64,000 bases of DNA from Rhodanobacter sp. AS-Z3. Lineage in GTDB: Bacteria; Pseudomonadota; Gammaproteobacteria; Xanthomonadales; Rhodanobacteraceae. Of the stretch, positions 3,802 through 29,008 are shown in pieces. A program made the translations under genes and the position numbers. The stretch spans positions 3,495,001 to 3,559,000 of the forward strand of contig NZ_CP119392.1 in assembly GCF_029224025.1 (NCBI RefSeq). The letters are read 5' to 3'. The notes under the pieces were generated by a model. The model was not told where the DNA came from. It saw only the letters and a list, made by a program, of their open reading frames with translations, and searched no databases. Position 1 is the first letter of the stretch, and the number at the start of each line of letters is the position of its first letter.

Positions 3802-5349
3802 ATGAACGACACCGCCATCCGCCATATCGTGATCGTCGGCGGCGGCACGGCCGGCTGGATGACGGCGGCCCTGCTCGCCAAGGCACTCGGCACACAAGTA
3901 AAAATCCAGCTGATCGAGTCCGACGAAATCGGCATTGTCGGCGTGGGCGAAGCGACCATTCCGCAGATTCGCCACATCAACGCCTTCCTCGGTCTCGATG
4001 AAGACGACATGCTCCGGGCCACCCACGGCACCTTCAAACTCGGCGTGCAACTGAACGACTTCGGCCGCCTCGGTGACTCCTATCTGCACGCATTCAGCGA
4101 CATTGGCCTGCCGCTGGGCCTGATCGGCTTCCATCACTACTGGTTGCGCGCCGTGCAGGGACATGGAAGTACCGCGGCAGCAGGCGCGACCGAGCGACCG
4201 CTCCACTCCGTCGGCGATCTTTGGTCGTACTCGCTCAACACCCAGGCCGCCAACGCCCACCGTTTCGCGCGCATGGACAAGGTCGGCAGCAGTGCACTGG
4301 GCGGCGTCAAATATGCCTACCACTTCGACGCCGGGCTGTATGGTCAATACCTGCGCAAGCACTGCGACCCTGCCGTGGTGAAGCGCACCGAAGGCAAGGT
4401 GGTCGACGTACAACGGCGTGAAAACGATGGCTTCATCGAATCGGTGCGATTGGCAAGCGACGAAATAGTTGCCGGCGATCTTTTCATCGACTGTTCGGGT
4501 TTTCGCGGCTTGCTGATCGAGGGGGCACTGAACACAGGCTACGAAAGCTGGCAGCACTGGCTTCCCTGTGACCGCGCACTGGCCGTTGCCAGCGCGCGCA
4601 CCGAACCACTATGGCCGTACACCCGTGCCACCGCGCGCACCGCGGGCTGGCAGTGGCGCGTGCCGCTGCAGCATCGCACCGGCAATGGCCATGTGTATTC
4701 CAGCCAGTTCCTCAGCGACGACGAGGCCAGCGCGATGCTGCTGGCCAACCTCGACGGCGAAGCCCTGGGTGATCCGCGTCCGCTGCGCTTCACCACCGGC
4801 ATGCGACGCAAGACATGGCAGCGCAACTGCATTGCGATTGGCCTGGCCGCCGGCTTCATGGAACCGCTGGAGTCCACCAGCATCCACCTGATCCAGTCCG
4901 GCATCAGTCGCCTGCTGGCGATGTTTCCTGATCGTCAGTGCGATCCGGTGTTGATGGAGGAATACAACCGACAGACCCGTTTCGAATATGAAAGCATCCG
5001 CGACTTTTTGATTCTTCACTACAAGGCGACCGAACGCGACGACACGCCGTTCTGGCGGCAGTGCGCAAACATGGACATCCCGCCGAGGCTGGCGCGCAAG
5101 ATCGCGCTGTTCCGTGGCAACGGCCATCTCCAGCGCGAGGCCGACGAACTGTTCACCGAAGTGGCCTGGTTGCAGGTGATGATCGGCCAGCACATCCAGC
5201 CAACAAGTCATCACCCGCTTGCCAATGCGATCAGCGACACGCAACTCGACGGCTTCCTCGGTGACCTGCGCACCCTGATCGGGCGCGCCACCAACAGCAT
5301 GCCCGACCATGCGCGCTTTGTTGCGGATCACTGCAAGACGAGAGACTGA
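3802..5349 (+). CDS. Flavin-dependent (tryptophan) halogenase family protein
   Basis: 515 residues from the ATG at 3802; a GTG at 3784 is possible but AGGAG fits the later start. It has the FAD-binding GGGTAGW (14-20) and a lysine at residue 79 (in GTFKLGVQ), the position of the catalytic Lys79 of PrnA. It also has the WxWx(I/V)P signature as WQWRVP and the late PLESTSIHLIQ block. Fully characterised members chlorinate or brominate tryptophan. Homologues beside TonB receptors and glycosidases in Xanthomonadales and Caulobacterales have no proven substrate. It sits 10 bases before the GH13 gene, suggesting cotranscription. Family membership is secure; halogenation activity and a link to sugar use are unproven. 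Confidence 0.88.
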   Translation: MNDTAIRHIVIVGGGTAGWMTAALLAKALGTQVKIQLIESDEIGIVGVGEATIPQIRHINAFLGLDEDDMLRATHGTFKLGVQLNDFGRLGDSYLHAFSDIGLPLGLIGFHHYWLRAVQGHGSTAAAGATERPLHSVGDLWSYSLNTQAANAHRFARMDKVGSSALGGVKYAYHFDAGLYGQYLRKHCDPAVVKRTEGKVVDVQRRENDGFIESVRLASDEIVAGDLFIDCSGFRGLLIEGALNTGYESWQHWLPCDRALAVASARTEPLWPYTRATARTAGWQWRVPLQHRTGNGHVYSSQFLSDDEASAMLLANLDGEALGDPRPLRFTTGMRRKTWQRNCIAIGLAAGFMEPLESTSIHLIQSGISRLLAMFPDRQCDPVLMEEYNRQTRFEYESIRDFLILHYKATERDDTPFWRQCANMDIPPRLARKIALFRGNGHLQREADELFTEVAWLQVMIGQHIQPTSHHPLANAISDTQLDGFLGDLRTLIGRATNSMPDHARFVADHCKTRD

Positions 5350-5358
5350 GAAATCCTC

Positions 5359-6921
5359 GTGCCGACTCGACGCCCAGGTTTCATCGCACTCGCCTTCGGC
5401 ATCTTGCTGGTCATGGCTGGCCAGCTGCAGGCCACGCCACCGACTGCGCTTAGTGCCACCACAACGAGCACATCCTCCGACGTCTGGTACGAAATCTTCG
5501 TGCGCAGTTGGTACGACAGCGATGGCGACGGCGTCGGTGATCTCAACGGCGTCACGGCGAAACTCGATTACCTGCAGTCGCTTGGTGTCAGCGGCATCTG
5601 GCTGATGCCGATCAATCCGTCGCCCAGTTACCACGGCTACGACATCACCGACTATGACGCGATCAACCCGCAGTACGGCAGCATGGCCGACTTCGCGCGC
5701 CTGCTGAGCGAAGCGCACAAGCGCGGCATCAAGGTGATCATCGACCTGGTGATCAACCACACCAGCGACCAGCACCCGTGGTTCAAGGCGGCCCGTGATC
5801 CGGCCAGTCCTTATCATCGCTGGTACCACTGGGCCGGTCCGCACACCGACCTGCGCGCCGAGGATGCTGCCGGCTCGCAGGCATGGCATGCACTCGGCGC
5901 AGCCCATTACCTGGGTGACTTCTCGTCGAACATGCCGGATCTCGACTACGACACGCCGGCGGTGCGTCAGCAGATGGTCAAGCTTGGCCAGTACTGGTTG
6001 CGCAAGGGCGTTGACGGTTTCCGCCTGGATGCCGCCCAGCACATCTATTACGACTTCAAGGCCGACGCCAACAATCCACTGACCCTGCAGAAGAATCTCG
6101 ACTGGTGGTCCGAATTCCGCCGTGGCATGAACGCGGTCAATCCCGCGGCCTACATCGTCGGCGAAGTGACCCGCGATTCCGCTGCCGAACTGGCGCCGTA
6201 TTTCAAGCCGCTCAGCGCCGTGTTCGACTTCCCGCTGGCTGCACGTTTGGTCGACAGCGCACGCGCTGAGCGTGCCGGCGATCTTGCCAGCATGCTTGCG
6301 CGCACCGACGCCGCTTACCGCAAAGTCACTGACAAATCTGCGGTTGATGCACCGTTCCTGTCCAACCACGATCAGCAGCGGGTGATGAGCCAACTCGGCG
6401 GCAACGCGCCGCACATGCGCATGGCCGCCGCGATGCTGCTCACCCTCCCCGGCCACCCCTTCATTTACTACGGCGAGGAACTGGGCATGCGCGGCAGCAA
6501 GCCCGACCCGAACCTGCGCGAGCCGATGCGCTGGCATGGAGACCCGCATGACCCAGGCCAGACGCGCTGGAAAACGTTCAGCGCCGGCGACAGCCCTGGG
6601 GTATCAGTGGATGCCGAACAAGCGGACGACGAGTCACTGCTGAATTACTACCGCACGCTGATCGGCTGGCGCCGCGATATCGGCGCACTGCGTGACGGCG
6701 CCCTTCGCACGTGGCCGCTGGCGAATCCGCATATCGCCGCATGGCAACTCGATGATGCCGGCGGTCCTGTGCTGGTGTTGCACAACTTGTCCAGCCAAGC
6801 GCAAGACATCCCGCTGGGAAACAGTCCATTCCACCATGTGCTGCGACACAGCCGATCAGACACCACCATTCAGCACGAACAGCTTTCGCTGCCACCGTAT
6901 TCCAGCGCCATCCTGAATTGA
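5359..6921 (+). CDS. Exported GH13 alpha-amylase family enzyme
   Basis: 520 residues with a GTG start; the N-terminal RRPGFIALAFGILLVMAGQLQA is a signal peptide, so it acts in the periplasm or outside. GH13 regions are intact: DLVINH (129-134), nucleophile D224 in GFRLDAAQH, acid/base E269 in VGEV and D338 in LSNHD. The DGDGVGDLNG loop recalls alpha-amylases and oligo-1,6-glucosidases. It lies 9 bases after the halogenase gene and 4 bases before the GH31 gene, so the three look like one operon. Likely substrate: maltooligosaccharides brought in by the upstream receptor. Confidence 0.92.
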   Translation: MPTRRPGFIALAFGILLVMAGQLQATPPTALSATTTSTSSDVWYEIFVRSWYDSDGDGVGDLNGVTAKLDYLQSLGVSGIWLMPINPSPSYHGYDITDYDAINPQYGSMADFARLLSEAHKRGIKVIIDLVINHTSDQHPWFKAARDPASPYHRWYHWAGPHTDLRAEDAAGSQAWHALGAAHYLGDFSSNMPDLDYDTPAVRQQMVKLGQYWLRKGVDGFRLDAAQHIYYDFKADANNPLTLQKNLDWWSEFRRGMNAVNPAAYIVGEVTRDSAAELAPYFKPLSAVFDFPLAARLVDSARAERAGDLASMLARTDAAYRKVTDKSAVDAPFLSNHDQQRVMSQLGGNAPHMRMAAAMLLTLPGHPFIYYGEELGMRGSKPDPNLREPMRWHGDPHDPGQTRWKTFSAGDSPGVSVDAEQADDESLLNYYRTLIGWRRDIGALRDGALRTWPLANPHIAAWQLDDAGGPVLVLHNLSSQAQDIPLGNSPFHHVLRHSRSDTTIQHEQLSLPPYSSAILN

Positions 6922-6925
6922 CGCG

Positions 6926-9340
6926 ATGATGCACGAGAAACCTCCAATGACTGCCAACCGCCGAACTCGCTCGTCCTTTCGCCGCCTCAGTGCCTGGCCG
7001 TGGCTGGTGCTCGCCGTGGCCGCTACCGGCAGCTTCACCGTGCGGGCTTCCGTGCCAGCGGCATCGGGGGCCATCGCTTCGACTGCTCACTCGCTGGTAG
7101 TCGATCTCGGCAGTGCTCGTCTGGATGTCCACTTCGTGACCGCAGGGATCGTGGGCATCCATTTCATGCCTGGCGATCAGACCACAGCACGCGCGATGGT
7201 GCTGGACCCGGCGCGGCTACCGACGACGTTTGCCGAGGTGCAGAAGACCGAGGATGCGAACGGCACGGAGTTGACTTCCGCTACGGCATCCATCCACTGG
7301 AATCGACAGCAGCATCGACTGGAGATCGCGGATAGCAAGCAGCACAGCCTGCTTGGCATCGACACCGATCGCCTGCAGCAGGGCCAGTTGCATGCGCGGC
7401 ACGCGGTCGGCGATGCCGTGTACGGCATCGGCGGCTACAACGCGACTGATGATGCCTCGGCGGGGCTGCTGCGCAACGGCAAGCTTGAGGCCAAGTCCGG
7501 CGAGCAGGGCCACGCCGGCGCGCCATTTGCATGGAGTACCGCGGGCTATGGCCTTCTTCTAGACGTCGATGGCGCCACCTTCACGCTGACAAAGGGAACG
7601 ATCGGCGCCAGCAGCCTGCGCAAGGACACGGACGTCTATATCCTGCTGGGTACGCCCGAACAGATCTTCGACTCGCTGGCCAGCCTCAGTGGTCACACCC
7701 CGCTGTTCCCCAAATGGGCAATGGGTTTCACCAATAGCCAGTGGGGCATCGACCAGCAGGAGCTGACCCAGATCGTCGATACCTACCGCGCCAAACACAT
7801 CCCGATCGACAACATCACGCTGGACTTCGACTGGAAAGCCTGGGGCGAGGACAACTACGGCGAGTTCCGCTGGAACCCGATCAAGTTTCCCGATGGCCCC
7901 AGCGGCGCACTGAAGAAACAGATGGAGGCGCGCGGTATGCACCTCACCGGCATCATGAAGCCGCGCATCCACGTGGATACCGTCGAAGGCCGCTACGCCA
8001 GCGCACACAAGTTCTGGGTGCCTGGCGAGAAAGTCAGCGACGACTATTTCTCGCACAAGCCGGTCAAGGACATCGACTTCGATATCCCCGCGGCGCGCCA
8101 GTGGTTCGGCGACCTGGCGATGAAGTACGGCTTTGCTGACGGCATTGCCGGCTGGTGGAACGACGAAGCGGATACCGTTGGCAGCACCACCGAATTCATG
8201 AACATGCAGCGCGCGCTTTACGACAGTCAGCGCGCCGTATCGAACCAGCGGGTGTGGTCGATCAACCGCAACTTCTGGCTGGGCGCGCAACGTTACGCCT
8301 ACGGCTTGTGGTCGGGCGATATCAATACCGGGTTCGAAAACATGGCCGCCCAGCGCGCACGCATGCTCAGCGCGATCAACGTTGGCGCGATGCAGTGGGG
8401 CATGGATGGCGGGGGCTTTCGCGGCGGCATGCCGACGCCGGAAAACTACGCGCGCTGGATTCAGTTCGGCGCATTCACGCCGATCTTTCGCGTACACGGC
8501 GACTTCGGCCAGAAGCGTCAGCCCTGGGTGTATGGACCGGTTGCGGAAAAAGCTGCCACCGCTGCGATACGCCTGCGCTATGCGCTGATACCGTACATCT
8601 ACAGCTACGAACATAGCCGCCGGATGACCGGCGTGGGCCTGGTACGACCGTTGCTGTTCGGCTGGCCGCACGACCCGCAGGTGCGCAACGACATTGACAG
8701 CTGGCTGTTCGGCGACTGGCTGCTGGTTTCGCCGGTGGTCGAGCAAGGGCAGACGGCGAAGAACATCTATCTTCCCGCCGGCCGCTGGATCGATTGGTTC
8801 AGCGGCAAGACCTACGACGGCGGCCAGATCATTCACCTCGCTACCGATGCGAAGCGTTGGAGCGATATTCCCTTGTTTGTACGCGCTGGCGCGATTATCC
8901 CTAGCCAGCCGGCGATGAATTACGTCGGCGAGCAGCCGCTTACCCAGCTTGAAGTCGACGTGTTTCCAGCGGCGCAGCACAGCAGCTTCAACTACTACGA
9001 TGACGATGGAATCAGCTACGACTACGAACAGGGTGCGTACTTCAGCCAGACCCTGTCGGTACAACGCGACGGCCATGAGGTGCAGTTTCAGACCGGTGCC
9101 GTCAGCGGCAGCTATCAGCCAGCCCTGAAGTTCTATCTGCTGAAAATTCATGGCGACGACGACATCGTCGGCACCGTCACCATCAACGGCAAGCAGCCGG
9201 CGCTTTTCACTGACCTTGACGCCTTGCAGAACGCGCAAGGTGAAGGTTGGGCGCGCGGAAAGGATCGTTTTGGCCCGGTGACCTGGGTGCGCGTTGTCGC
9301 AGGCGCCGCGCAAACCGTGCGGCTGGCACCGACGCATTGA
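6926..9340 (+). CDS. Exported GH31 alpha-glucosidase family enzyme
   Basis: 804 residues from the ATG at 6926; the ATG at 6947 (MTANRRTRSS) is an equally good start with GAGAA in front. RRLSAWPWLVLAVAATGSFTVRA looks like a signal peptide. An N-terminal beta-sandwich (about 50-250) is followed by a GH31 barrel. The probable nucleophile is D413 in GWWNDEAD and the general acid D465 in LWSGD. GH31 enzymes release glucose or xylose from non-reducing ends; the starch context favours alpha-glucosidase. It is the last gene of the halogenase-GH13-GH31 run, and no clear terminator is visible behind it on this strand. Confidence 0.9.
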   Translation: MMHEKPPMTANRRTRSSFRRLSAWPWLVLAVAATGSFTVRASVPAASGAIASTAHSLVVDLGSARLDVHFVTAGIVGIHFMPGDQTTARAMVLDPARLPTTFAEVQKTEDANGTELTSATASIHWNRQQHRLEIADSKQHSLLGIDTDRLQQGQLHARHAVGDAVYGIGGYNATDDASAGLLRNGKLEAKSGEQGHAGAPFAWSTAGYGLLLDVDGATFTLTKGTIGASSLRKDTDVYILLGTPEQIFDSLASLSGHTPLFPKWAMGFTNSQWGIDQQELTQIVDTYRAKHIPIDNITLDFDWKAWGEDNYGEFRWNPIKFPDGPSGALKKQMEARGMHLTGIMKPRIHVDTVEGRYASAHKFWVPGEKVSDDYFSHKPVKDIDFDIPAARQWFGDLAMKYGFADGIAGWWNDEADTVGSTTEFMNMQRALYDSQRAVSNQRVWSINRNFWLGAQRYAYGLWSGDINTGFENMAAQRARMLSAINVGAMQWGMDGGGFRGGMPTPENYARWIQFGAFTPIFRVHGDFGQKRQPWVYGPVAEKAATAAIRLRYALIPYIYSYEHSRRMTGVGLVRPLLFGWPHDPQVRNDIDSWLFGDWLLVSPVVEQGQTAKNIYLPAGRWIDWFSGKTYDGGQIIHLATDAKRWSDIPLFVRAGAIIPSQPAMNYVGEQPLTQLEVDVFPAAQHSSFNYYDDDGISYDYEQGAYFSQTLSVQRDGHEVQFQTGAVSGSYQPALKFYLLKIHGDDDIVGTVTINGKQPALFTDLDALQNAQGEGWARGKDRFGPVTWVRVVAGAAQTVRLAPTH

Positions 9341-21881: not shown

Positions 21882-22108
21882 TCCCATCCGACCGGTACAA
21901 CGCTTCGAGCCTCCGGCCAGCAATTACGCCATTTCCGCCCCCGTTACACCCTCACTTCCGCACGCATAACTGTTACACCCCCAAAACTGCCGGATAACAC
22001 GGGCGGCGCGCATGCGTGTCTCCGCCCAACCCGCAGCGCAAACGCATGATCTTCTGCAGGAATTTCCTGCTTGTCCGGCAAAGCGTGGCAACGCATACTC
22101 CGGGCAAC

Positions 22109-22140
22109 ACCCCATATTTGGGGTCTACTAAGCGTTAGGT
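22109..22140 (+). other. Left boundary of cassette array: solitary core site GTTAGGT beside a short hairpin
   Basis: A short inverted repeat (ACCCCA/TGGGGT, 22109-22124) is followed by AGCGTTAGGT, whose GTTAGGT (22134-22140) matches the GTTRRRY recombination core. The ATG of the first cassette follows four bases later. It could be an attI-like site or the right part of a decayed attC. The 250 bases between the amylase stop and this point hold no gene, and no integrase lies nearby. Confidence 0.5.
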
Positions 22141-22143
22141 GCC

Positions 22144-22512
22144 ATGGGAAGTACGCTCGCTATTGCTACAGCATTGCTCGTCGGCTCTTGGTTTCCCATA
22201 GCCGGCGGCACATGGACACCCGAGCAAGCTGCTACAGCGCAGCTGCGAGCATCTATGCAGCCGTATGTAGTCGCCCACGCGAGTGACCAGCATCGGGAGC
22301 TTCGCCCTTGGTCAAGCTACTCGTTTCAGTACCAAGGTCGTGGCAGCGCAGACGGTAAATTCATCTTCATCAACGCCTTCTGCAGCGCTCCCGACGCATA
22401 TGCAGCCGAGCGGTTCGTGCAAGTTCTAGACGGTGGTACTTGTTACTTCGAACTCAAATACAATCCAAAGACCAAAACGTTTTACGATCTCGGGTTCAAC
22501 GGCGTAGCGTAA
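22144..22512 (+). CDS. Cassette 1: small exported protein of unknown function
   Basis: 122 residues. LAIATALLVGSWFPIAGG is a likely signal peptide or membrane anchor. The mature part carries YSFQYQGRGSADGKFIFINAFCSAPDAYAAERFVQVLDGGTCYFELKYNPKTKTFYDLGFNGVA and looks like a small secreted domain with two cysteines. I do not assign it to a named family. The ATG follows the leftmost core site by four bases, and the stop lies 12 bases before attC1, the usual place for a cassette gene. Confidence 0.75.
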   Translation: MGSTLAIATALLVGSWFPIAGGTWTPEQAATAQLRASMQPYVVAHASDQHRELRPWSSYSFQYQGRGSADGKFIFINAFCSAPDAYAAERFVQVLDGGTCYFELKYNPKTKTFYDLGFNGVA

Positions 22513-22523
22513 CGCGCTGTGGC

Positions 22524-22579
22524 ACCTAACCAGTCATCCAAGCGGACGGCTCCGCCGCCGCTTAATTCCAGCGTTAGAC
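22524..22579 (+). other. attC site 1
   Basis: 56 bases from ACCTAAC to GTTAGAC. The inner stem AAGCGG/CCGCTT encloses ACGGCTCCGCCG. Nearly identical to sites 2, 3 and 5. Confidence 0.93.
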
Positions 22580-22599
22580 CTTACAAGGAACACCTCTCC

Positions 22600-22815
22600 A
22601 TGGTCGTAAAGAAAAAGCGTGAAGGTTTTGGCCTTGAAATGAAAACGTTCGAGGGTGAGGACGGTAATTCGTACTTGGTCTTTCGTACTGGCACAGGCTC
22701 CTTCCATGTGTTCATGGAGGTCGAGGCTAAAGAGGCTGCGCGTCAGTGCGGAGCCACTTCCGGCAAGAACACTCGTGGTATGTGGTCGGATGTCTGGCGC
22801 GGCGGTAAGGTCTAA
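22600..22815 (+). CDS. Cassette 2: small protein of unknown function
   Basis: 71 residues starting MVVKKKREGFGLEMKTFEGE at the ATG at 22600, with AAGGAA in front. The frame is open further upstream, but that part would translate attC1. It is a soluble, basic small protein with GNSYLVFRTGTGSFHVFMEVEAKEAARQ, suggesting one small alpha/beta domain. No family recognised. The TAA stop is part of the next attC core (GTCTAAC). Confidence 0.75.
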   Translation: MVVKKKREGFGLEMKTFEGEDGNSYLVFRTGTGSFHVFMEVEAKEAARQCGATSGKNTRGMWSDVWRGGKV

Positions 22816-22865
22816 CATCTCATCCAAGCGGACGGCTGCGCCGCCGCTTAATTCCAGCGTTAGGC
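22810..22865 (+). other. attC site 2
   Basis: 56 bases from GTCTAAC to GTTAGGC with stem AAGCGG/CCGCTT. The left core contains the stop codon of cassette 2. Confidence 0.93.
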
Positions 22866-23170
22866 GGTCAGAACAGCATCCTTTTTGTGTTGCGTCGCGT
22901 GCGCCGCTTTCTGGCTTTGCATTGGCTGCGCGGGTCATGTTGTTTCACGCTGGCCTGCGTTGTCGTCTTTCGTGCGCTTGGTCGTTCGTTGCGTCTTGCG
23001 CGCGTTGTCCTATTTCGCATCTTCGTTCTTCGCCGTACGCGCGGTTCGTCGCACGTGGCGTTTGTCGTCAGCGGTTTCGTTCTTCGCACGCAGGCCACAA
23101 CCTTCGCGGCATTGCCGGGCTTTCAAAGCAGCGCTATCGTGTCGCTCACCGACGGCGTAACTTGGCTGCC
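22866..23170 (+). other. Cassette 3: no convincing gene
   Basis: 305 bases between attC2 and attC3. Several overlapping frames are open but give arginine- and cysteine-rich translations. The only one ending at the attC core is 22937-23176 (79 residues, ATG start, no good ribosome binding site). The sequence is rich in CGTT/TCGT words, unlike its neighbours. It may be a non-coding cassette. Confidence 0.5.
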
Positions 23171-23226
23171 GTCTAACCAGTCATCCAAGTGGACGGCTTC
23201 GCCGCCACTTAATTCCAGCGTTAGGC
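23171..23226 (+). other. attC site 3 (with compensatory stem change)
   Basis: 56 bases from GTCTAAC to GTTAGGC. The stem is AAGTGG/CCACTT rather than AAGCGG/CCGCTT: both strands changed so pairing is kept. Confidence 0.93.
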
Positions 23227-23233
23227 CAATGAA

Positions 23234-23560
23234 ATGCACTCCACATCGCTTGATCTAATACTGGACGCCGCAGGCATATATTTTGTGTTGTACGGCGCCG
23301 CGCTACTAGCAGCCATTTGGTTTTTTCCATCGCTCAAGAGGCAAGTTCAGCTTCATCCGCGGCTTTGGGGAAGGCTTCCGCAGGAAAATTTCCGAGCGTC
23401 GACACAGGGGCTTTTTTATCTACTCTTCGGAGCATATTTTACGTGTGGTAACTTGGGTTACCGCGTGATGAGCTACAGCTTGTTTGGGCTATTTGCCATA
23501 TGTGCGGTCGTCATGTTTTGGCAACGATTCAACCATCGTAACGGTCAGGGGCGGGCCTAA
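23234..23560 (+). CDS. Cassette 4: small inner-membrane protein
   Basis: 108 residues with three predicted membrane segments (about 8-30, 58-75 and 80-97) and a basic tail. It shares a pattern with cassette 5: AAG.......YG...L...W..P in the first segment and (S/I)CAV near the end, and both end in a His/Arg-rich tail, so the two look like diverged copies. An ATG at 23229 is in another frame; 23234 is the best start. The stop is the TAA of attC4. Function unknown. Confidence 0.75.
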   Translation: MHSTSLDLILDAAGIYFVLYGAALLAAIWFFPSLKRQVQLHPRLWGRLPQENFRASTQGLFYLLFGAYFTCGNLGYRVMSYSLFGLFAICAVVMFWQRFNHRNGQGRA

Positions 23561-23617
23561 CCACTCGTCCAAGCGGACGCGCGAAAAGCCGCGCGCCGCT
23601 TAACTCCAGCGTTAGAC
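23555..23617 (+). other. attC site 4 (second subtype)
   Basis: 63 bases from GCCTAAC to GTTAGAC with a longer inner stem-loop GCGCG-AAAAGC-CGCGC. It shares this subtype with site 6. Confidence 0.92.
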
Positions 23618-23635
23618 CTCACAGGAAGTGTCTCG

Positions 23636-23938
23636 ATGATCGACAATATTTTGATCGCTGCCGGCCTTGCTATGGCGGTCTACGGTTTTATTGGTCTCGT
23701 GGGGGTTTGGTTAGTCCCCGCAATCGGAAGCTCACGGCTCTATGGTGCGGGCATGCTCACCGGGCGCATGGAGCCTACTCGCGTCAATAGAACGGTCACG
23801 GTGCTCTGGGCTCTTCTCTTTGGTATGTGTCTGGCTTCGTTGTCTTCGGGTCACCGCACACTGGGCAATCTTTTCTTGGTGGCGTTCTCGCTATGCGCCG
23901 TCGCGGTTCTGTACATGCGGCATCGACATGGCAGGTGA
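23636..23938 (+). CDS. Cassette 5: small inner-membrane protein, relative of cassette 4
   Basis: 100 residues, starting MIDNILIAAGLAMAVYG after AGGAAG. Three hydrophobic segments (5-30, 54-70 and 74-92) and a tail YMRHRHGR. Alignable by eye with the cassette 4 product over the first and last segments. It ends with TGA two bases before attC5. Function unknown; small membrane proteins are frequent cargo of chromosomal arrays. Confidence 0.78.
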   Translation: MIDNILIAAGLAMAVYGFIGLVGVWLVPAIGSSRLYGAGMLTGRMEPTRVNRTVTVLWALLFGMCLASLSSGHRTLGNLFLVAFSLCAVAVLYMRHRHGR

Positions 23939-23939
23939 G

Positions 23940-23995
23940 GTCTAACCAGTCATCCAAGCGGACGGCTCCGCCGCCGCTTAATTCCAGCGTTAGGC
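23940..23995 (+). other. attC site 5
   Basis: 56 bases from GTCTAAC to GTTAGGC; identical inside to site 1 over the stem and loop. Confidence 0.93.
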
Positions 23996-24011
23996 CTCAC
24001 AAACGAAATCT

Positions 24012-24314
24012 ATGACCAACCAAGTTGACGACAATTTCTACAACCGTGCAGATGGATACATTGCGCTAGCTAACGAACATTGCTTGTCTACTGGCAAGGG
24101 TAAAGTTAGTGCGTCGTTTCTCTATGGCGCCGCCAGATTCAATGCTTACGTTGGAGCTATCAATTCCGGTTCACTTCAGCGCATGACGGAAGAAAAAGAA
24201 AACATTGTCAGCTACTACTTGAAAGAGTACGAAGATATGCTCCGCGAGAACCTCACTGACTACATCGAAAATTACGACGACTACATGGCAACACCGAGCG
24301 GCGGTGAGGCCTAA
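24012..24314 (+). CDS. Cassette 6: DUF3144 family protein
   Basis: 100 residues. FYNRADGYIALANEHC, GKVSASFLYGAARFNAYV and the ending DYIENYDDYM match the DUF3144 family, short cytoplasmic proteins of unknown function in proteobacteria. The helix-rich, acidic C-terminus (EEKENIVSYYLKEYEDMLRENLTDY) is typical. The stop is the TAA of the next attC core. That attC is cut by the IS1182-type element just downstream. Confidence 0.85.
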   Translation: MTNQVDDNFYNRADGYIALANEHCLSTGKGKVSASFLYGAARFNAYVGAINSGSLQRMTEEKENIVSYYLKEYEDMLRENLTDYIENYDDYMATPSGGEA

Positions 24315-24367
24315 CAATTCGTCCAAGCGGACGTGCGAAAAGCCGCACGCCGCTTAACTCAAGCGTT
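24309..24367 (+). other. attC site 6, interrupted in its right core
   Basis: GCCTAAC, the stem and AAGCGTT are present, but the core GTTAGAC is split: GTT at 24365-24367, then the IS, then GTTAGAC at 26118-26124. The inner stem GTGCG/CGCAC differs from site 4 (GCGCG/CGCGC) by a compensatory pair. Confidence 0.9.
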
Positions 24368-26117
24368 GAGGCTGTAGAAAAAGCTCTTTTCGCACGCAGA
24401 TAGACGGCCATAACCGCGACGAGTGAATGCCGTCACTTGGCGATGCCGATTTCGGCGCATCCGCATGGCGCAATATTTGGTTCTATCTGACACCGCTGAC
24501 ACGCGTTCCAGACAGCGCAACGCGCGCCTTCTGCCCGGTCACGCCACCTTGCGGTAGTTCGCCCACTTCTCGATGTTGTGGACCAGGGCGAACAACTTCC
24601 ATTGCCCGTCCACTTTGGGTTGGCTGCGCAGCGTGAAACGGTCGAGCCGCTTGTTCGCGCGCACGTTGCCGAACACCGGCTCGACGATCGCGAAGCGTCG
24701 GCCATACTGCTCACGTCCGCGCTCGCTGTCGATGCGCTCGCGCATGCGCTGGCTGTGGGTGGGCTCGACTTTGCGCGTGAGCACGGCGACCTGTCGTGAC
24801 CGCGTGGTTTGCGGCTTGCGCAAGCACTTAGGACGCAGCGGGCAATCCTTGCAGGCGGCTTCCGATGCACGGAATTTGATCGCGGCGTAGCCGCCGATGG
24901 TGCAGTCCTTGCCGTTGCGATACAGGTGCTTTCCGGCTGGGCAAACGGCATGGGACTGGTCCGGCGCGATGATGAAATCGGCGCTGCCGAACAGCCGTGA
25001 CTTGGCCTTCTTGCGTGACTTGTCGTGCAGCGGATCGGGCTTGGCCAGGTGCTTGTCCTGCTCGACGAATCGTTCATCGCGTCGACGCATGGCGTTGTCG
25101 GCGATCAAGGCATTGATCTGCCTTTCAGCCAATCCGGCGAGGTTGGCTTCGGAGTGATAGCCGGCATCGGCAGTGATCAAGGTGGTGGCTGTGCGCTGGG
25201 CAGCGCATGCGTCAAGCACGGGCAACAGCAGCTCTTGCTCGGCGCCGGTGCCGTGAGCCGAGGCCTCGACGATGACTTGATGCTTGTCATCGACCACGGC
25301 CACGGCACAGTAACCCTGGATCACGCCCTTGTCGGTGGCCAGCTTCGCCGACTCGTTGTCTGTGCGGTTGGACTTGCGAATCTTGCCGCGCGAACCGGGT
25401 CGATCGTCGGGGTGCTCGGCCAACCACTGGCGGATCTTGATCGCGTCGCTGGTGAGGCGGTCGATGCGAGCAGCCGCCTTGGCGTCCAGCACATCTTCGG
25501 CCGTGCCGGCATCGTTGGCCTGATGGCGCTCCAGCATCGTCGCTGCGGCGCGCTCCATCTTCTGCGCCTGCGCGAGGAACTCGGCACGCGTGCCGGAGCG
25601 GTGTTTGGATGCGTTGGATGGCAGCTTTACGCCATCAATGGCAAACATCTCCCGGCCGATCAGCCCCTCGCCATCGAGTAGCGTGAGCACCTGGGAAAAC
25701 ACCGACGCGATGGCGTCGCGCGAGCGGCTGACAAAGTCGGCAATCGTGGTGAAGTGCGGCTTGGCGTCGCCGGTCAACGCGATGAACAGCACGTTGTCGC
25801 GGCAAGCGCGCTCGATCGACCGCGAGCTCACCATGCCCTGCGAATACGCCAGCAACACCGCCTTGAGCAACATCGTCGGTGCGTGCGCTGGCGCGCCGTT
25901 CTGGTCGTTGCGGTAGTGCGCATCGAACGCCGACAGGTCCAGTTGATCCACCAGGTGATGCAGCGCGTGCGCGAACGACCCCGGCACCAGCTGCGCCTGC
26001 AGATCCACCGGCAACAGCCGTGGACTCATGTCGATGTGTCGGTAACGCGCCATGCTCGTGCCTCTTGTTCGCCTGAGGCTATTGAAGCAAGATCGCCGGA
26101 GGTTTTTCTACAACCTC
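24368..26117 (-). mobile_element. IS1182-type insertion sequence, complete
   Basis: About 1750 bases. The left end GAGGCTGTAGAAAAAGCTC and the inverted right end GAGGTTGTAGAAAAACCTC are imperfect terminal repeats. GTT flanks both sides, consistent with a 3-4 base target duplication. It carries one intact transposase on the minus strand and no passenger gene. Confidence 0.9.
24539..26053 (-). CDS. IS1182-family transposase
   Basis: 504 residues, full length. The N-terminal SPRLLPVDLQAQLVPGSFAHALHHLVDQLDLSAFDAHY, then FAIDGVKLPSNASKH (first DDE aspartate), LITADAGYHSEANL (second) and the C-terminal FGNVRANKRLDRFTLR block are those of DDE transposases of the IS1182 group. A cysteine patch (ACKDCPLRPKCL) lies near residue 400, as usual for this family. 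No frameshift, so the element may be active. Confidence 0.93.
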   Translation of the reverse strand: MARYRHIDMSPRLLPVDLQAQLVPGSFAHALHHLVDQLDLSAFDAHYRNDQNGAPAHAPTMLLKAVLLAYSQGMVSSRSIERACRDNVLFIALTGDAKPHFTTIADFVSRSRDAIASVFSQVLTLLDGEGLIGREMFAIDGVKLPSNASKHRSGTRAEFLAQAQKMERAAATMLERHQANDAGTAEDVLDAKAAARIDRLTSDAIKIRQWLAEHPDDRPGSRGKIRKSNRTDNESAKLATDKGVIQGYCAVAVVDDKHQVIVEASAHGTGAEQELLLPVLDACAAQRTATTLITADAGYHSEANLAGLAERQINALIADNAMRRRDERFVEQDKHLAKPDPLHDKSRKKAKSRLFGSADFIIAPDQSHAVCPAGKHLYRNGKDCTIGGYAAIKFRASEAACKDCPLRPKCLRKPQTTRSRQVAVLTRKVEPTHSQRMRERIDSERGREQYGRRFAIVEPVFGNVRANKRLDRFTLRSQPKVDGQWKLFALVHNIEKWANYRKVA

Positions 26118-26143
26118 GTTAGACCTTTAAGGGAGAGATCACA

Positions 26144-26500
26144 GTGGCTTGGAGCATTAAAGCGAAGGTTTTGGTCGCGGTCGCGTTACTGGTCGTAGCA
26201 TCCGGTGCTATGGCTGCAGGGGGCAAGTTAGGGTTTGGCAGCCAAGTCAGCGTCTCCGGCTTCTTCAGCCCGACGCTCGAGCAGGTCAAAGTATCAACCG
26301 TGACTGCTGGTTCGCCTGCGGCGACTGCGGGCCTAAAGCCAGGCGATTATATCGTCGAGGTTAATGGCAAGCCGGTCAGTGGCGCACCGGCTCGCGCAAT
26401 GGCAAGTCAATTTAAAAGCTTGCAGCCGGGTCAGCATCTGCTACTTAAACTTAAGCGTGGCAATAAATTCGTAAACGCAGATATCGTGGCCGGCGCGTAA
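26144..26500 (+). CDS. Cassette 7: exported single-PDZ-domain protein
   Basis: 118 residues from GTG at 26144, with GGGAGAG in front. KVLVAVALLVVASGAMAAG is a signal peptide. The rest is a PDZ fold: QVKVSTVTAGSPAATAGLKPGDYIVEVNGKPVSG and a final strand GQHLLLKLKRGNKFVNADIV. PDZ domains bind protein C-termini or peptides; alone and exported, it may modulate a periplasmic protease or envelope protein. This is inferred from the fold only. Before the IS inserted, its ribosome binding site followed attC6 directly. Confidence 0.85.
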   Translation: MAWSIKAKVLVAVALLVVASGAMAAGGKLGFGSQVSVSGFFSPTLEQVKVSTVTAGSPAATAGLKPGDYIVEVNGKPVSGAPARAMASQFKSLQPGQHLLLKLKRGNKFVNADIVAGA

Positions 26501-26502
26501 AG

Positions 26503-26559
26503 GTCTTGCATCTCGTTCCAGGCGGACGGCTACGCCGCCGCTCAACTCCATCGTTAGGT
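26503..26559 (+). other. attC site 7, left core degenerate
   Basis: The right core GTTAGGT and the stem GGCGGACGGCTACGCCGCCGCTC remain, but the left core reads GTCTTGC instead of GTCTAAC. Confidence 0.8.
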
Positions 26560-26563
26560 CCCC

Positions 26564-26947
26564 ATGACACACGATCGCAAAATGGAAGAGTACAAGCGCC
26601 TGATGGCGGAAAAGGGAATTGGGGCAGCGACTGCGTGTCCGCCTCTTTGGAAGCTGCTCTGGTCAATGGGCATTCCGCTTCCGCCACCGCTGTACATGCG
26701 TTTTCTGCCGCTTGCCCTTCTTGGCGGCGCATTCTTTGGACTCATGTTTGGTGCTTTTGCTTGGTACATGGGTAATAGGGGCATTCGCACCATGTCGTTC
26801 AAAGAGGCGTGTGATGTCGCCCTGATCACCGGCGCGGCTTTCGGTATTAGTGTCGCGTGGCTCACCCGTCGTCAGGCTCGCAAACTCGGGTTAGGTACTT
26901 GGTCTGCACTGGGCGCAGCCCGGCTGCATACCCAAGAGTTCCTTTAG
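26564..26947 (+). CDS. Cassette 8: DUF6404-like small membrane protein, C-terminus probably altered
   Basis: 127 residues. PPLWKLLWSMGIPLPPPLYMRF followed by two membrane segments (45-67, 86-102) and RKLGLGTWSAL resembles the DUF6404 family, known from integron cassettes. The match is from memory and moderate. Family members seem to end soon after the W-x-x-L motif; here 15 further residues (GAARLHTQEFL) run into the IS110 remnant, so the natural C-terminus and the attC were probably lost to that insertion. Confidence 0.65.
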   Translation: MTHDRKMEEYKRLMAEKGIGAATACPPLWKLLWSMGIPLPPPLYMRFLPLALLGGAFFGLMFGAFAWYMGNRGIRTMSFKEACDVALITGAAFGISVAWLTRRQARKLGLGTWSALGAARLHTQEFL

Positions 26948-27685
26948 TCAGGTTCTCTCCGGGTGGGTCTGACGCGTTGCCTATCACTTCGCGCTGGCGA
27001 TGAAACGAACTCGGTACTTCAGGCGGCTTGAACTGAGCGACGCATTGGATGACGCAGGCTGGCACAGGGGTCGTAGTGCACATCCTGCGCCAGCGTCACC
27101 CACAGTTGGCGTGCATGTTTGTTCGCCAGGTCGTGAACCAACACCGTGAACTCGATGGGCAGCGCGGCCTGTTCGTGCAGCTCGGCCAGCACCCGGCGCA
27201 GCGCCTCGGCCTTGTAGCCTTCGCGCACCCGGCGCCAGGCCAGCCGTGCCTGCTGGTCGATGGTGTTGATCGGCACGAAGTGCATATTGCCCTGACGAGC
27301 GACCGCGGTAATCGCCTCGGCGTCGTTGCGATGGTTCTTGCTGTGCTGGCTTTTGCGATACGGTTTGACCAGTTGCGCGGCCATCCACCGTGGCTGTAAG
27401 CCGTATTCCAGACACCGTCGCGCCCAGTGATGCGCCCCGCTGCATGCTTACATCGCCACCATCGCACCCGTCGGCACCTGTGCCAGCCACTGGCCAAACA
27501 CGTCACGGCGCAGATCCTGCCGCCGCAACCCGCTGCTCGAGGCATCTACCTCGCAAACCGAAAACACGCTCTTCGCCAAATCCACGCCGATGGTTATAGT
27601 GCTCATGGAGACGTCCTCTTCTGTTGATGGTTGTTTCGCAACACCATCATGGCCCTCGAGGTCTTAGGGGGAGGAAGTCTCTTTT
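26948..27685 (-). mobile_element. IS110-type insertion sequence remnant in an attC
   Basis: The region between the DUF6404-like gene and the truncated attC8 is occupied by a decayed IS110-type element. Its transposase is broken. On the right it abuts attC8 exactly where the left core should be. Members of the IS1111 group of IS110 are known to target attC sites. Outer boundaries are approximate. Confidence 0.7.
27019..27606 (-). pseudogene. Broken IS110-family transposase
   Basis: Read from the ATG at 27604-27606, the protein starts MSTITIGVDLAKSVFSVCEVD, the DEDD-type N-terminus of IS110 transposases, and continues to residue 52. There an in-frame TAA (27448-27450) stands where the family has GAA in the motif M-E-A-C-SGAHHWAR. 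The frame then continues with PYRKSQHSKNHRNDAEAI. Further on, EGYKAEAL joins directly to RRVLAELHEQAALP, suggesting an internal deletion, and the C-terminal serine domain is missing. It cannot make an active enzyme. Confidence 0.85.
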
Positions 27686-27740
27686 TACTCGTTCAAGCGA
27701 ACCGCTGCGTTCCAGCGGCCACTTAATTTCGGCGTTAGGC
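27686..27740 (+). other. attC site 8, left core replaced by IS end
   Basis: ACTCGTTCAAGCG, a stem CCGCTG/CAGCGG and CACTTAATTTCGGCGTTAGGC are present. The TAAC of the left core is missing and TTTT from the IS110 remnant stands in its place. Confidence 0.8.
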
Positions 27741-27755
27741 AATTAGGAGAGGTAT

Positions 27756-28049
27756 ATGGTCACCAATGGATGGAACCGCTTGTTGCTTGTTCTATCGGCA
27801 GCTTGGCTCTTGCTCGCAGGCCTGTGGATTTTCGCAAACTATCCGAATGTAACGCCAGATTTGGCCGCTTCACCGGTGAACGATCCATTTTTTAGCGTAG
27901 TTTCTACGGGAAATAGCGCCAGTCCGTTTCAGATCAGCGCGCATCCTTTGGCCATGGCAAGTTACATCGTCATCCCTATTCTTCTGTTGTGGGCTTTTGC
28001 CGGCGTCGTTCGCTGGATTAGACGCGGCTTTCGGCAAGACATTGCCTAA
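27756..28049 (+). CDS. Cassette 9: small membrane protein
   Basis: 97 residues with AGGAGAGG before the ATG. Membrane segments at about 8-28 and 66-86 flank an extracytoplasmic stretch (NYPNVTPDLAASPVNDPFFSVV...). The basic tail RWIRRGFRQDIA suggests that both ends are cytoplasmic. No family recognised. The stop is the TAA of attC9. Confidence 0.75.
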   Translation: MVTNGWNRLLLVLSAAWLLLAGLWIFANYPNVTPDLAASPVNDPFFSVVSTGNSASPFQISAHPLAMASYIVIPILLLWAFAGVVRWIRRGFRQDIA

Positions 28050-28100
28050 CCACTGGTCCGAGGCGGACGGCTGTGCCGCCGCTCCATTCCAACGTTGCAC
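28044..28100 (+). other. attC site 9, right core degenerate
   Basis: The left core GCCTAAC is intact. The stem GGCGGACGGCTGTGCCGCCGCTC remains. The right core reads GTTGCAC instead of GTTAGRC. Confidence 0.8.
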
Positions 28101-28117
28101 CTCACTGGGAGAATTTC

Positions 28118-28363
28118 TTGGGTACTGGATTTTGGGTCAAGCGTCTTCTTACCGTTCTTGTGGGCGCGTTCGCGATCATCTTCGCCGTGCAGCTGCTCAA
28201 GGGCCATAGCTTCGGTTATGCCGCGGCGCAGGGGGCCATTTGGGGCACTCTGGCTACGCTTATCTTCGGCGTCACCCGGTTCTTTCGAGCAAGACGTGGT
28301 CAGCATTGCGCGATGTGCAGGGACACGCCGGAGATGCAGCAAGACTCTCGCGGGGATGTCTAA
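28118..28363 (+). CDS. Cassette 10: small membrane protein
   Basis: 81 residues from a TTG at 28118 with GGGAG in front. The upstream ATG at 28073 lies inside attC9 and is unlikely. Two membrane segments (about 7-22 and 32-50) precede a cytoplasmic tail with CAMC. No family recognised. The stop is the TAA of attC10. Confidence 0.6.
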   Translation: MGTGFWVKRLLTVLVGAFAIIFAVQLLKGHSFGYAAAQGAIWGTLATLIFGVTRFFRARRGQHCAMCRDTPEMQQDSRGDV

Positions 28364-28411
28364 CCGCATTCGAGGCGGACGCCACGCCGCCGTTCAACTC
28401 CAGCGCCACGC
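28358..28411 (+). other. attC site 10, decayed
   Basis: The left core GTCTAAC and the stem region GGCGGACGCCACGCCGCCGTTC remain. The right core reads GCCACGC, so recombination there should be lost. Confidence 0.7.
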
Positions 28412-28414
28412 CTT

Positions 28415-28861
28415 ATGAAGAATGCGCCGCCCGGATACGAGTGTCCGTTCTGCGGCATTGCGGAGACGCTGCCCTCGTCCGCCCCGGAATCCGCCGTTGT
28501 GTTGGTGGATGCGAACCTGTTCGCCCTGGTCCCGACTCACCACTACGCTGGCATACGAGGCAACTGCCTGGTGGTACCTCGGAGCCACTATGAGAACGTG
28601 CTGGACATCCCGGACAACCTCGGTAGCGACTTCTTTCGTGCCACGCGTCGTCTCGCGGGTGCGATGCGGGAGGCTTTTGGGTGTGAAGGAATATCTACCC
28701 GCCAGCACAACGGTCCGGCCGGCGATCAAGACGTGTGGCACTACCATCTGCATGTATTTCCCCGCCAGCCAAATGACGGGCTGCATGCGGGGCGGAAAGT
28801 GCCGTACACGACCGAGGAACGCATTGCGGTGGCAGCAAGCCTGCGGGCCGCTTTGCGGTAG
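28415..28861 (+). CDS. HIT family nucleotide hydrolase/transferase
   Basis: 148 residues. The start YECPFCGI (a possible zinc-binding CxxC) and the active site HYHLHVFPR (HxHxHxx), preceded by QHNGPAGDQDVWH, define a histidine-triad protein. These act on nucleoside phosphoramidates or dinucleoside polyphosphates in the cytoplasm. It lies between two decayed attC-like sites and is therefore probably a fixed former cassette. Its codon use is closer to the chromosome than that of the cassettes further left. Confidence 0.88.
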   Translation: MKNAPPGYECPFCGIAETLPSSAPESAVVLVDANLFALVPTHHYAGIRGNCLVVPRSHYENVLDIPDNLGSDFFRATRRLAGAMREAFGCEGISTRQHNGPAGDQDVWHYHLHVFPRQPNDGLHAGRKVPYTTEERIAVAASLRAALR

Positions 28862-28903
28862 GTGTACGTTGCGTGCGAGTCGAGTTACCCGGATGCACCA
28901 TGC

Positions 28904-28961
28904 AAGCTTGGTCCGCAGTCCACGCGTACGGCCACGTCACCGCTCAGTTCCCGCGTCGGGC
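28904..28961 (+). other. Possible fully decayed attC (site 11)
   Basis: GCGTACGGCCACGTCACCGCTC followed by AGTTCCCGCGTCGGGC can be aligned with the right half of the other sites (GCGGACGGCTACGCCGCCGCTC, AACTCCAGCGTTAGGC). Both cores are damaged. It would mark the old right end of the array. Confidence 0.4.
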
Positions 28962-29008
28962 GGCACAAGGCCCCTCCGCGCCATTCACCGCATTCTGGGA
29001 AATTATTG

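Follow-up and report, generated by a model that had tools for sequence, protein, structure and literature searches.

The window, by which we mean the whole 64,000-nucleotide stretch of Rhodanobacter DNA analysed, contains an array of small genes and attC sites with an amylase as its left neighbour, as a preliminary description had stated. The array is preceded by an attI platform without intI (21936-22138, plus strand), recognised by its homology to the intI-attI region and by a profile score of 169.5 bits, the window copy being itself in the profile. On the same strand of the platform are an inverted repeat, CCCC/GGGG, together with the 17-base attI core (22110-22136; core, 22120-22136), a predicted crossover point between G22134 and T22135, and a possible Pc (TTGTCC, 17 nt, CATACT; 22071-22099; 8/12, scored by eye), whose position is conserved in the alignment. 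A scan of the window attI for promoters and terminators detected none; across the putative Pc block, the window copy shares just 54-60% identity with its relatives.

Rightward of the platform, all on the plus strand, lie cassette 1, with a gene for 122 aa of no Pfam family (22144-22512), and attC 1 (22525-22581; 81.4 bits, fold z -3.4); the 286-bp cassette 2, with a gene for 71 aa (22600-22815), and attC 2 (22811-22867; 81.0 bits, z -2.3); cassette 3 (22868-23171), with no clear gene and an open frame (22887-23258) without a Pfam match, and attC 3 (23172-23228; 81.1 bits, z -2.6); cassette 4, with a gene for 108 aa (23234-23560), and attC 4 (23556-23619; 67.3 bits, z -3.4); cassette 5, with a gene for 100 aa (23636-23938), and attC 5 (23941-23997; 83.6 bits, z -2.3); and the 376-bp cassette 6, with a DUF3144 gene (24012-24314), and attC 6 (24310-24373; 45.3 bits), which has an insertion sequence in its right core. 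This insertion sequence (24368-26117, minus strand) has terminal inverted repeats and encodes a DDE transposase (24539-26053; Pfam DDE_Tnp_1_6 and DUF772). Beyond it, again on the plus strand, are a cassette 7 gene with a PDZ domain (26144-26500), attC 7 with a changed 5' core (26504-26561; 72.0 bits, z -1.3) and a DUF6404 gene in cassette 8 (26564-26947), followed by an insertion-sequence remnant (26944-27690, minus strand; 89-92% identical to L153 over two pieces). The right-hand end, on the plus strand, comprises a worn attC 8 (27680-27742; 55.0 bits, z -0.6), the cassette 9 gene (27756-28049; 97 aa), a worn attC 9 (28045-28102; 63.0 bits, z 0.0), the cassette 10 gene (28073-28363; 96 aa), a worn attC 10 (28359-28413; 50.3 bits, z -0.6), a cassette 11 gene with a HIT domain (28415-28861) and, at the end of the array, an attC relic (28906-28963; 22.2 bits, E 0.6, z +0.5). 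The same direction of the genes and the location of several cassette stop codons inside the TAAC core were both confirmed, and the cargo is indeed mostly without known function: four of the ten cassette proteins tested reached the Pfam cut-off (PDZ, HIT, DUF3144 and DUF6404), and an eleventh candidate frame had no Pfam match. The remnant at 26944-27690, in which two frames gave no Pfam match, is presumably IS110/IS1111-like; IS1111-attC insertion sequences are elements of that family inserted in attC. It abuts an attC, and its relatives lie beside attC in L010 and L153.

attC calls and folding

An attC site is defined by the fold of its bottom strand, with complementary R boxes (TAAC/GTTA) and an L stem carrying an extrahelical base. 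Nine of the window sites were used to build a covariance model, with which the genome, a complete 4.09-Mb Rhodanobacter chromosome, was scanned (150 of 1724 first-look candidates scored; threshold E<=1). We found 31 matches spread over five places, 11 in the window array, 7 at the intI locus, 10 in a prophage-like region, and 2 and 1 elsewhere. When 43 loci were searched with a covariance model, ten of the window sites scored E<=1.4e-6. The cassette array claimed at 22134-28961 stands, with ten attC sites called and one more marginal. Since the model had been trained on the window sites, DNA folding of the bottom strands served as a separate check. Six of the 11 gave more stable structures than dinucleotide shuffles (z -2.3 to -3.4), and the other five, all at the right-hand end, folded no better (z -1.3 to +0.5), 26 to 138 of 200 shuffles folding equally well. 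The complete canonical shape was present in five of the 11 sites, the rest having the stem only or being damaged. Because five sites fold no better than shuffles, the earlier count of eight well-formed sites is generous, and we list five as canonical, one as interrupted by an insertion sequence (24310-24373), four as recognisable but worn, and one as a relic. With ten sites and intI absent nearby, the array corresponds to a CALIN (at least two attC sites and no neighbouring intI), a cluster of attC sites lacking integron integrase, conserved loci of which are described in Xanthomonas (PMC12444791). Rfam at gathering thresholds matched nothing within the window.

The distant integrase and the attI copies

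The earlier statement that there is no integrase holds locally, none being present upstream of or among the cassettes, but not genome-wide: TIGR02249 identified one full-length IntI (483.9 bits, against a cut-off of 265; C1:435769-436710), which rules out a genome without integrase. This intI, overlooked in the preliminary description together with the attI platform, lies about 1.01 Mb from the window array if the chromosome is circular, and its locus has its own attI and array. Residues 18-330 of IntI align with the solved integron integrase 2A3V; one IntI query began with about 50 read-through residues ahead of the genuine start of intI, and matches there represent attI DNA. Over 212 bp, positions 21941-22151 of the window share 75% identity (E 5e-34) with the chromosome's intI-attI region. 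Judged by this homology, the window array is headed by an attI, a diverged relative of the intI-linked one. The 2 kb preceding the window attI contained no intI, so that the adjacent intI of a complete integron is absent here. We weighed an IntI secondary site at GTTACACC as the left edge of the platform but do not claim one, because the edges of 20 copies (G038a being left out of this count) vary between profile positions 317 and 406. Two type B attI copies outside the count, L221 and L250, retain longer or other pieces of intI. With the 77-copy profile, attI was not found at the other attC clusters of the chromosome (L152, L153 and L154).

Across the family, the exact 17-base attI core had 77 matches in 43 of 233 genomes (reversed control, 0), with two to four copies per genome in 23 of these 43. 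A largely intact intI (at least 200 aa of it encoded within 2 kb upstream of the core) accompanied 31 copies, a remnant 6, and none 40. When counts were restricted to copies with at least 600 bp downstream (13 of the 77 are shorter), a same-strand attC occurred within 3 kb downstream in 24/25 copies with intact intI, 5/6 with a remnant and 31/33 with none, and no attC was found in the 1.5 kb upstream of any of the 77. A profile search for attI gave 46 non-redundant matches, 35 of which were named and used (14 intI-linked, 21 not); three of the 21 (G032a, G038a and G006a) are partial or poor and were left out of a comparison of 17 hand-picked pairs, in which the core block was 81-100% identical and the spacer 36 to 91%. 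This contrast between core and spacer was alike for intI-less and intI-linked copies. In Rhodanobacter, the core was present in 24 of 37 intI-bearing and 0 of 8 intI-free genomes (p 9e-4, for species that are not independent and with intI-linked copies included); among genomes of the genus with a core copy lacking a largely intact intI, only 13 of 18 have a full-length intI. No clear correspondence between attI type and the type of the resident IntI emerged: at the amylase of G009 the attI is of type A, yet the sole intI of this genome is truncated and shares about 70% identity with the G000 intI.

Identical cassettes were found in different arrays. For example, the 286-bp cassette 2 has a 100% identical copy in the prophage-like array (L152) of the same chromosome, and the 376-bp cassette 6 has one at the intI locus, only the left break of the latter being clean because its right end falls where the insertion sequence cuts in. 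A further case is G016, where the cassette next to an intI-less attI also stands, 100% identical over 352 bp, at an inner position of another array. These comparisons cover the retrieved loci, which often extend about 3 kb downstream of an attI. Because the window array possesses an attI and shares two cassettes, at 100% identity, with other places in the chromosome, it is not best read as one that keeps foreign genes in place, as had been proposed. Furthermore, at locus X, which has an orthologous intI-less attI in three species (G001, G008 and G044), the right flanks are 93-95% identical over about 1.5 kb and the attI copies are related, and no common array segment of at least 120 bp was found among the three. 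Their intI is truncated or broken, suggesting that these locus-X arrays may now be static. The concern that the repeats might be unlinked to cassette gain and loss was not borne out, since at orthologous loci of other species, as distinct from strains of one species, related flanks enclose different cassettes or none.

A candidate attI port filled in trans

We consider that the window array is probably a satellite integron array whose attI port the distant IntI fills in trans. The platform of about 200 bp would provide an attI, and perhaps a cassette promoter, with no intI of its own; a circular cassette would enter by recombination of its attC at the G^TT core of attI and leave by attC recombination, both carried out in trans by the single full-length IntI about 1.01 Mb off, whose own attI is 75% identical. 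Action of IntI on the window attI, a working Pc and the manner of platform copying are what we infer here. The support consists of the attI homology, the lack of a local intI, the distant full-length IntI, the identical cassettes, the recurrence and the conservation of the core; in addition, G016 and locus X offer comparative sequence evidence consistent with cassette insertion at an intI-less attI. Counted against it are the presence of a full-length intI in only 13 of the 18 Rhodanobacter genomes mentioned above, the truncated or broken intI of the locus-X species, the worn right-hand attC sites, the two insertion sequences interrupting the array, the 25% difference between the window attI and the intI-linked attI, a Pc that the scan did not find and whose putative block is poorly conserved, and the identical cassettes, which could be two separate captures from outside.

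The worn sites and the insertion sequences could also come from a relic, in which a former complete integron filled the array here and then lost intI, leaving the array static and decaying. Decay of intI is common in the genus, and remnants adjoin some attI copies elsewhere (6/77; in G004, 41 codons are kept). We regard this origin as unlikely, since no intI was found downstream of the amylase in 36 relatives (36 of 80 loci examined, in available sequence of up to 9 kb, several contigs ending sooner) or within 2 kb ahead of the window attI, the attI core is conserved while the spacer diverges, and the window shares identical cassettes with other arrays. A plain CALIN, with cassettes at a non-classical genomic site (attG) and no attI, would agree with the lack of an adjoining intI and with the attG integration cited in PMC12444791, but is very improbable given the 212-bp homology to the intI-attI region that heads the array. 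That the repeats are ordinary intergenic elements and the genes not cassettes is scarcely credible: we found no point in its favour, and it is contradicted by the five sites whose bottom strands fold canonically, by sites of the same kind behind a genuine intI, and by cassette-sized identical units in different arrays.

The same arrangement occurs in relatives, which points to the possibility of a single enzyme supplying several docking ports with cassettes. We lean slightly towards a broader model, a multi-port integron of the Rhodanobacteraceae, and probably of the Xanthomonadaceae too (with another attI core), in which a chromosomal IntI would serve scattered attI ports, modules of about 200 bp would be copied to and kept at cross-species loci independently of intI, and many CALINs may be attI-headed capture platforms. 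Tools seeking intI and attC need not look for a lineage-specific attI, and arrays without a neighbouring integrase get listed as CALINs. If many of these start with a hidden attI, they would be additional ports for capture, perhaps for expression; this would help to explain the recurrence of CALINs at fixed loci, and one enzyme could place cassettes at several chromosomal positions. Recombination of attI with attI has been reported for IntI (PMC8946536), and multiple attI would then be sites where such recombination could rearrange the chromosome.

In the open-access literature, subscription papers being mostly outside the scope, we found no account of dispersed chromosomal attI ports. A functional IntI can mobilise CALINs in trans, according to PMC12444791. 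The arrays described here resemble the Xanthomonas CALINs of that paper in that attC-bounded cassettes lie at a distance from intI and at chromosomal positions that recur, but differ in that the window array starts with an identifiable attI, none being reported at CALINs in its main text. One published precedent of a CALIN with its own attI comes from the Shewanella prophage M16-3, where, as described in PMC9892861, a single inactive prophage carries both arrays; the copies described here, in contrast, sit in the chromosome, in this genome at a distance of about 1 Mb from intI, and number two to four in 23 genomes, at common loci in several species. From a sedentary chromosomal integron, the window array differs in being without intI. 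In the delta-attI cassettes of mobile integrons, displaced attI pieces are still recombined by IntI1 (PMC12901181); there a partial attI lies within a cassette, whereas here a whole attI region heads the array.

The window array and its attI site

Covariance scoring with a model built from nine window sites called ten attC sites (cassette-end sites) at E≤1.4e-6 and an eleventh marginally, indicating that the cassette array described from sequence at 22134-28961 is real. When the attC bottom strands were folded as single-stranded DNA, five took the canonical form, with TAAC/GTTA arms and an inner stem carrying an extrahelical base; a sixth, cut by an insertion sequence, retained its stem, and the five right-hand sites folded no better than shuffles. 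By inspection of this one array, attC quality declines from left to right, which would fit entry of new cassettes at the left. The preliminary description had reported no integrase; this holds at the array itself, but a genome-wide TIGR02249 search of the single 4,092,380-bp contig revealed one full-length integrase gene, intI, at C1:435769-436710 on the same chromosome (483.9 bits, cut-off 265), about 1.01 Mb from the array if the chromosome is circular. Residues 18-330 of the product align with 2A3V, an integron integrase of solved structure, and seven attC calls lie next to the gene.

Window 21941-22151 matched a stretch of the intI locus that starts shortly within intI and runs up to the first cassette (75% over 212 bp, E 5e-34). 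In alignment, the window attI (the cassette docking site, 21936-22138), with the amylase stop codon about 55-60 bp upstream, keeps the surroundings of the intI start codon, the inverted repeat CCCC-N6-GGGG and the core TCTACTAAGCGTTAG, and lacks intI itself. By definition the array is a CALIN (an attC cluster without a neighbouring integrase), not a complete integron. The earlier reading of an array without its own integrase is refined: judged from sequence, it is headed by its own attI and was most likely filled in trans. CALIN cassettes can be captured or excised in trans, according to PMC9668308. CALINs also occur at conserved Xanthomonas loci (PMC12444791), in passages that do not describe attI there. 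Searches of an open-access library brought up no description of attI ports (platforms that would take cassettes) scattered over a chromosome.

A putative promoter-like hexamer pair was seen by eye in the window attI; a promoter scan did not call it, and this block shares only 54-60% identity with three relatives. The inverted repeat before the core (22110-22123 and in relatives) often keeps its pairing despite letter changes, other lineages having CCGC/GCGG or TCCC/GGGA in place of CCCC/GGGG, with exceptions such as CCTC/GGGG; these paired changes hint at a structural or binding role. Within the array, one attC site is interrupted in its right core by an insertion sequence that encodes a DDE transposase (24368-26117). 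Three related insertion sequences, which may be IS110/IS1111-like, adjoin attC in this chromosome (window 26944-27690, L010 2370-3870 and L153 about 3810-5364).

Recurrence of attI with and without intI

Used as a DNA query, the window attI found matches in 23 of 45 Rhodanobacter genomes, several having two or three long copies. The exact core GGGGTCTACTWAGCGTT gave 77 matches spread over 43 of the 233 family genomes and 8 of the 26 genera, with two to four copies in 23 of the 43, and the reversed core gave none in the same 233; in an order-wide sample it occurred in 29 of 398 genomes, one outside the family. Thirty-one of the 77 copies had ≥200 aa of intI within 2 kb upstream, 6 had a remnant and 40 had none, one of the last having only 588 bp of upstream sequence. 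Where copies had 600 bp or more of downstream sequence, attC on the same strand lay within the next 3 kb in 24/25 with intI, 5/6 with a remnant and 31/33 without, and no attC was found in the 1.5 kb upstream of any of the 77 cores. Contig breaks do not account for the missing intI in five genomes, the present one (G000), G001, G008, G009 and G044, since their chromosomes are in one or two contigs.

Within Rhodanobacter, 37 genomes had an intI match and 24 of them carried the core, which was absent from all 8 genomes lacking such a match (p 9e-4, in a test that ignores kinship and includes intI-linked copies). A full-length intI was found somewhere in 13 of the 18 Rhodanobacter genomes having a core without a largely intact intI; some genomes carry more than one intI, so that "one enzyme" can be asserted for the present genome alone. 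In the neighbouring family a different attI core gave 26 matches across 20 of 297 genomes, six of which had two; by a coarse tblastn count over 1.5 kb upstream, intI was matched over ≥200 query residues for nine copies, as fragments for twelve and not at all for five. Several fragments, repeatedly those beside attI in loci L268, L270, L271, L273 and L288, stop near query residue 152-154, as if at a preferred breakpoint.

Cassettes common to different arrays

The fetched loci yielded 386 delimited cassettes, including 62 first cassettes, which were compared at thresholds of ≥95% identity with ≥85% coverage. Among the matches, window cassette 6 is identical to a cassette of the intI locus (376 bp, 100%), and cassette 2 to one in a prophage-like array at C1:2.358 Mb (L152; 286 bp, 100%). 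In genome G016, an attI without intI is followed by a first cassette that also occurs at an inner position of another array (352 bp, 100%); the attI of that other array has upstream only a 50-residue intI-like stretch. Junctions of the 100%-identical cassettes fall at the G^TT core, except at the right end of the cassette 6 pair, which is an insertion-sequence cut in the window copy. Judged by position, the DNA immediately after the G004 attI, where 41 intI codons are kept, is 98.3% identical to an inner cassette of G007. Independent capture of these cassettes from outside would look the same; in G016 and G004, however, it too would require an integrase acting at attI without an intact intI.

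L152 (C1:2354000-2366000) has ten attC-type sites at 3860-7080, with small open frames that seem antisense to them, next to a phage-type tyrosine integrase (PHROG integrase, E 6e-33) and a phage-like DNA methyltransferase gene, and is probably a prophage-borne cassette array. Window 22938-23223, in cassette 3, which has no clear gene, shows 75% similarity to L154 3788-4071, beside a lone attC at C1:3.256 Mb.

Conservation of attI copies and their loci

In 17 hand-picked attI pairs, identity was 81-100% in the core block, 74-98% in the upstream block and 36 to 91% in the spacer, the lowest spacer values (36 and 40%) belonging to two pairs without intact intI; intI-less copies look to be under constraint. 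Homology ends about 10-40 codons into intI in 20 measurable copies, with the start codon placed from the consensus, and does so in G033a despite 96.5% identity to its intI-linked sister; either the copied unit may have a preferred end, or function may keep only that much.

At locus X, an orthologous intI-less attI locus in several species, four copies (G001b, G008a, G043a, G044a) share 85-95% mutual identity and 81-89% with G033b, vs 78-81% with the intI-linked attI from the same genome, which three of the genomes have. In G001, G008 and G044, the upstream genes are related and the right flanks are 93-95% identical over about 1.5 kb and 87-88% further out, and the arrays (~4.2, 0.9 and 2.4 kb) have no common segment of ≥120 bp; this turnover may predate intI loss, since intI is truncated or broken in all three. 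In G009 (L166 about 5780-5820) and G044 (L178 about 5244), intI is missing its N-terminal portion, with an attC or cassette directly at the break; in G044 the sequence there resembles window cassette 1 by eye.

Among 36 examined of 80 amylase loci returned, five (L072, L073, L074, L082, L086) had an attI-like core ≤1 kb downstream of amylase, with three core types read, and L080 had an attI profile match. No intI was found downstream of amylase in the 36, in sequence of up to 9 kb, several contigs ending much earlier. The attC calls behind these cores ranged from none in L082 to 13 in L072. L072 and the window share a conserved right flank (EAL gene), and their arrays have no common segment of ≥120 bp. 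In a Rhodanobacter MAG (L076 12206-15698), the attC sites at the amylase locus point the opposite way, towards amylase.
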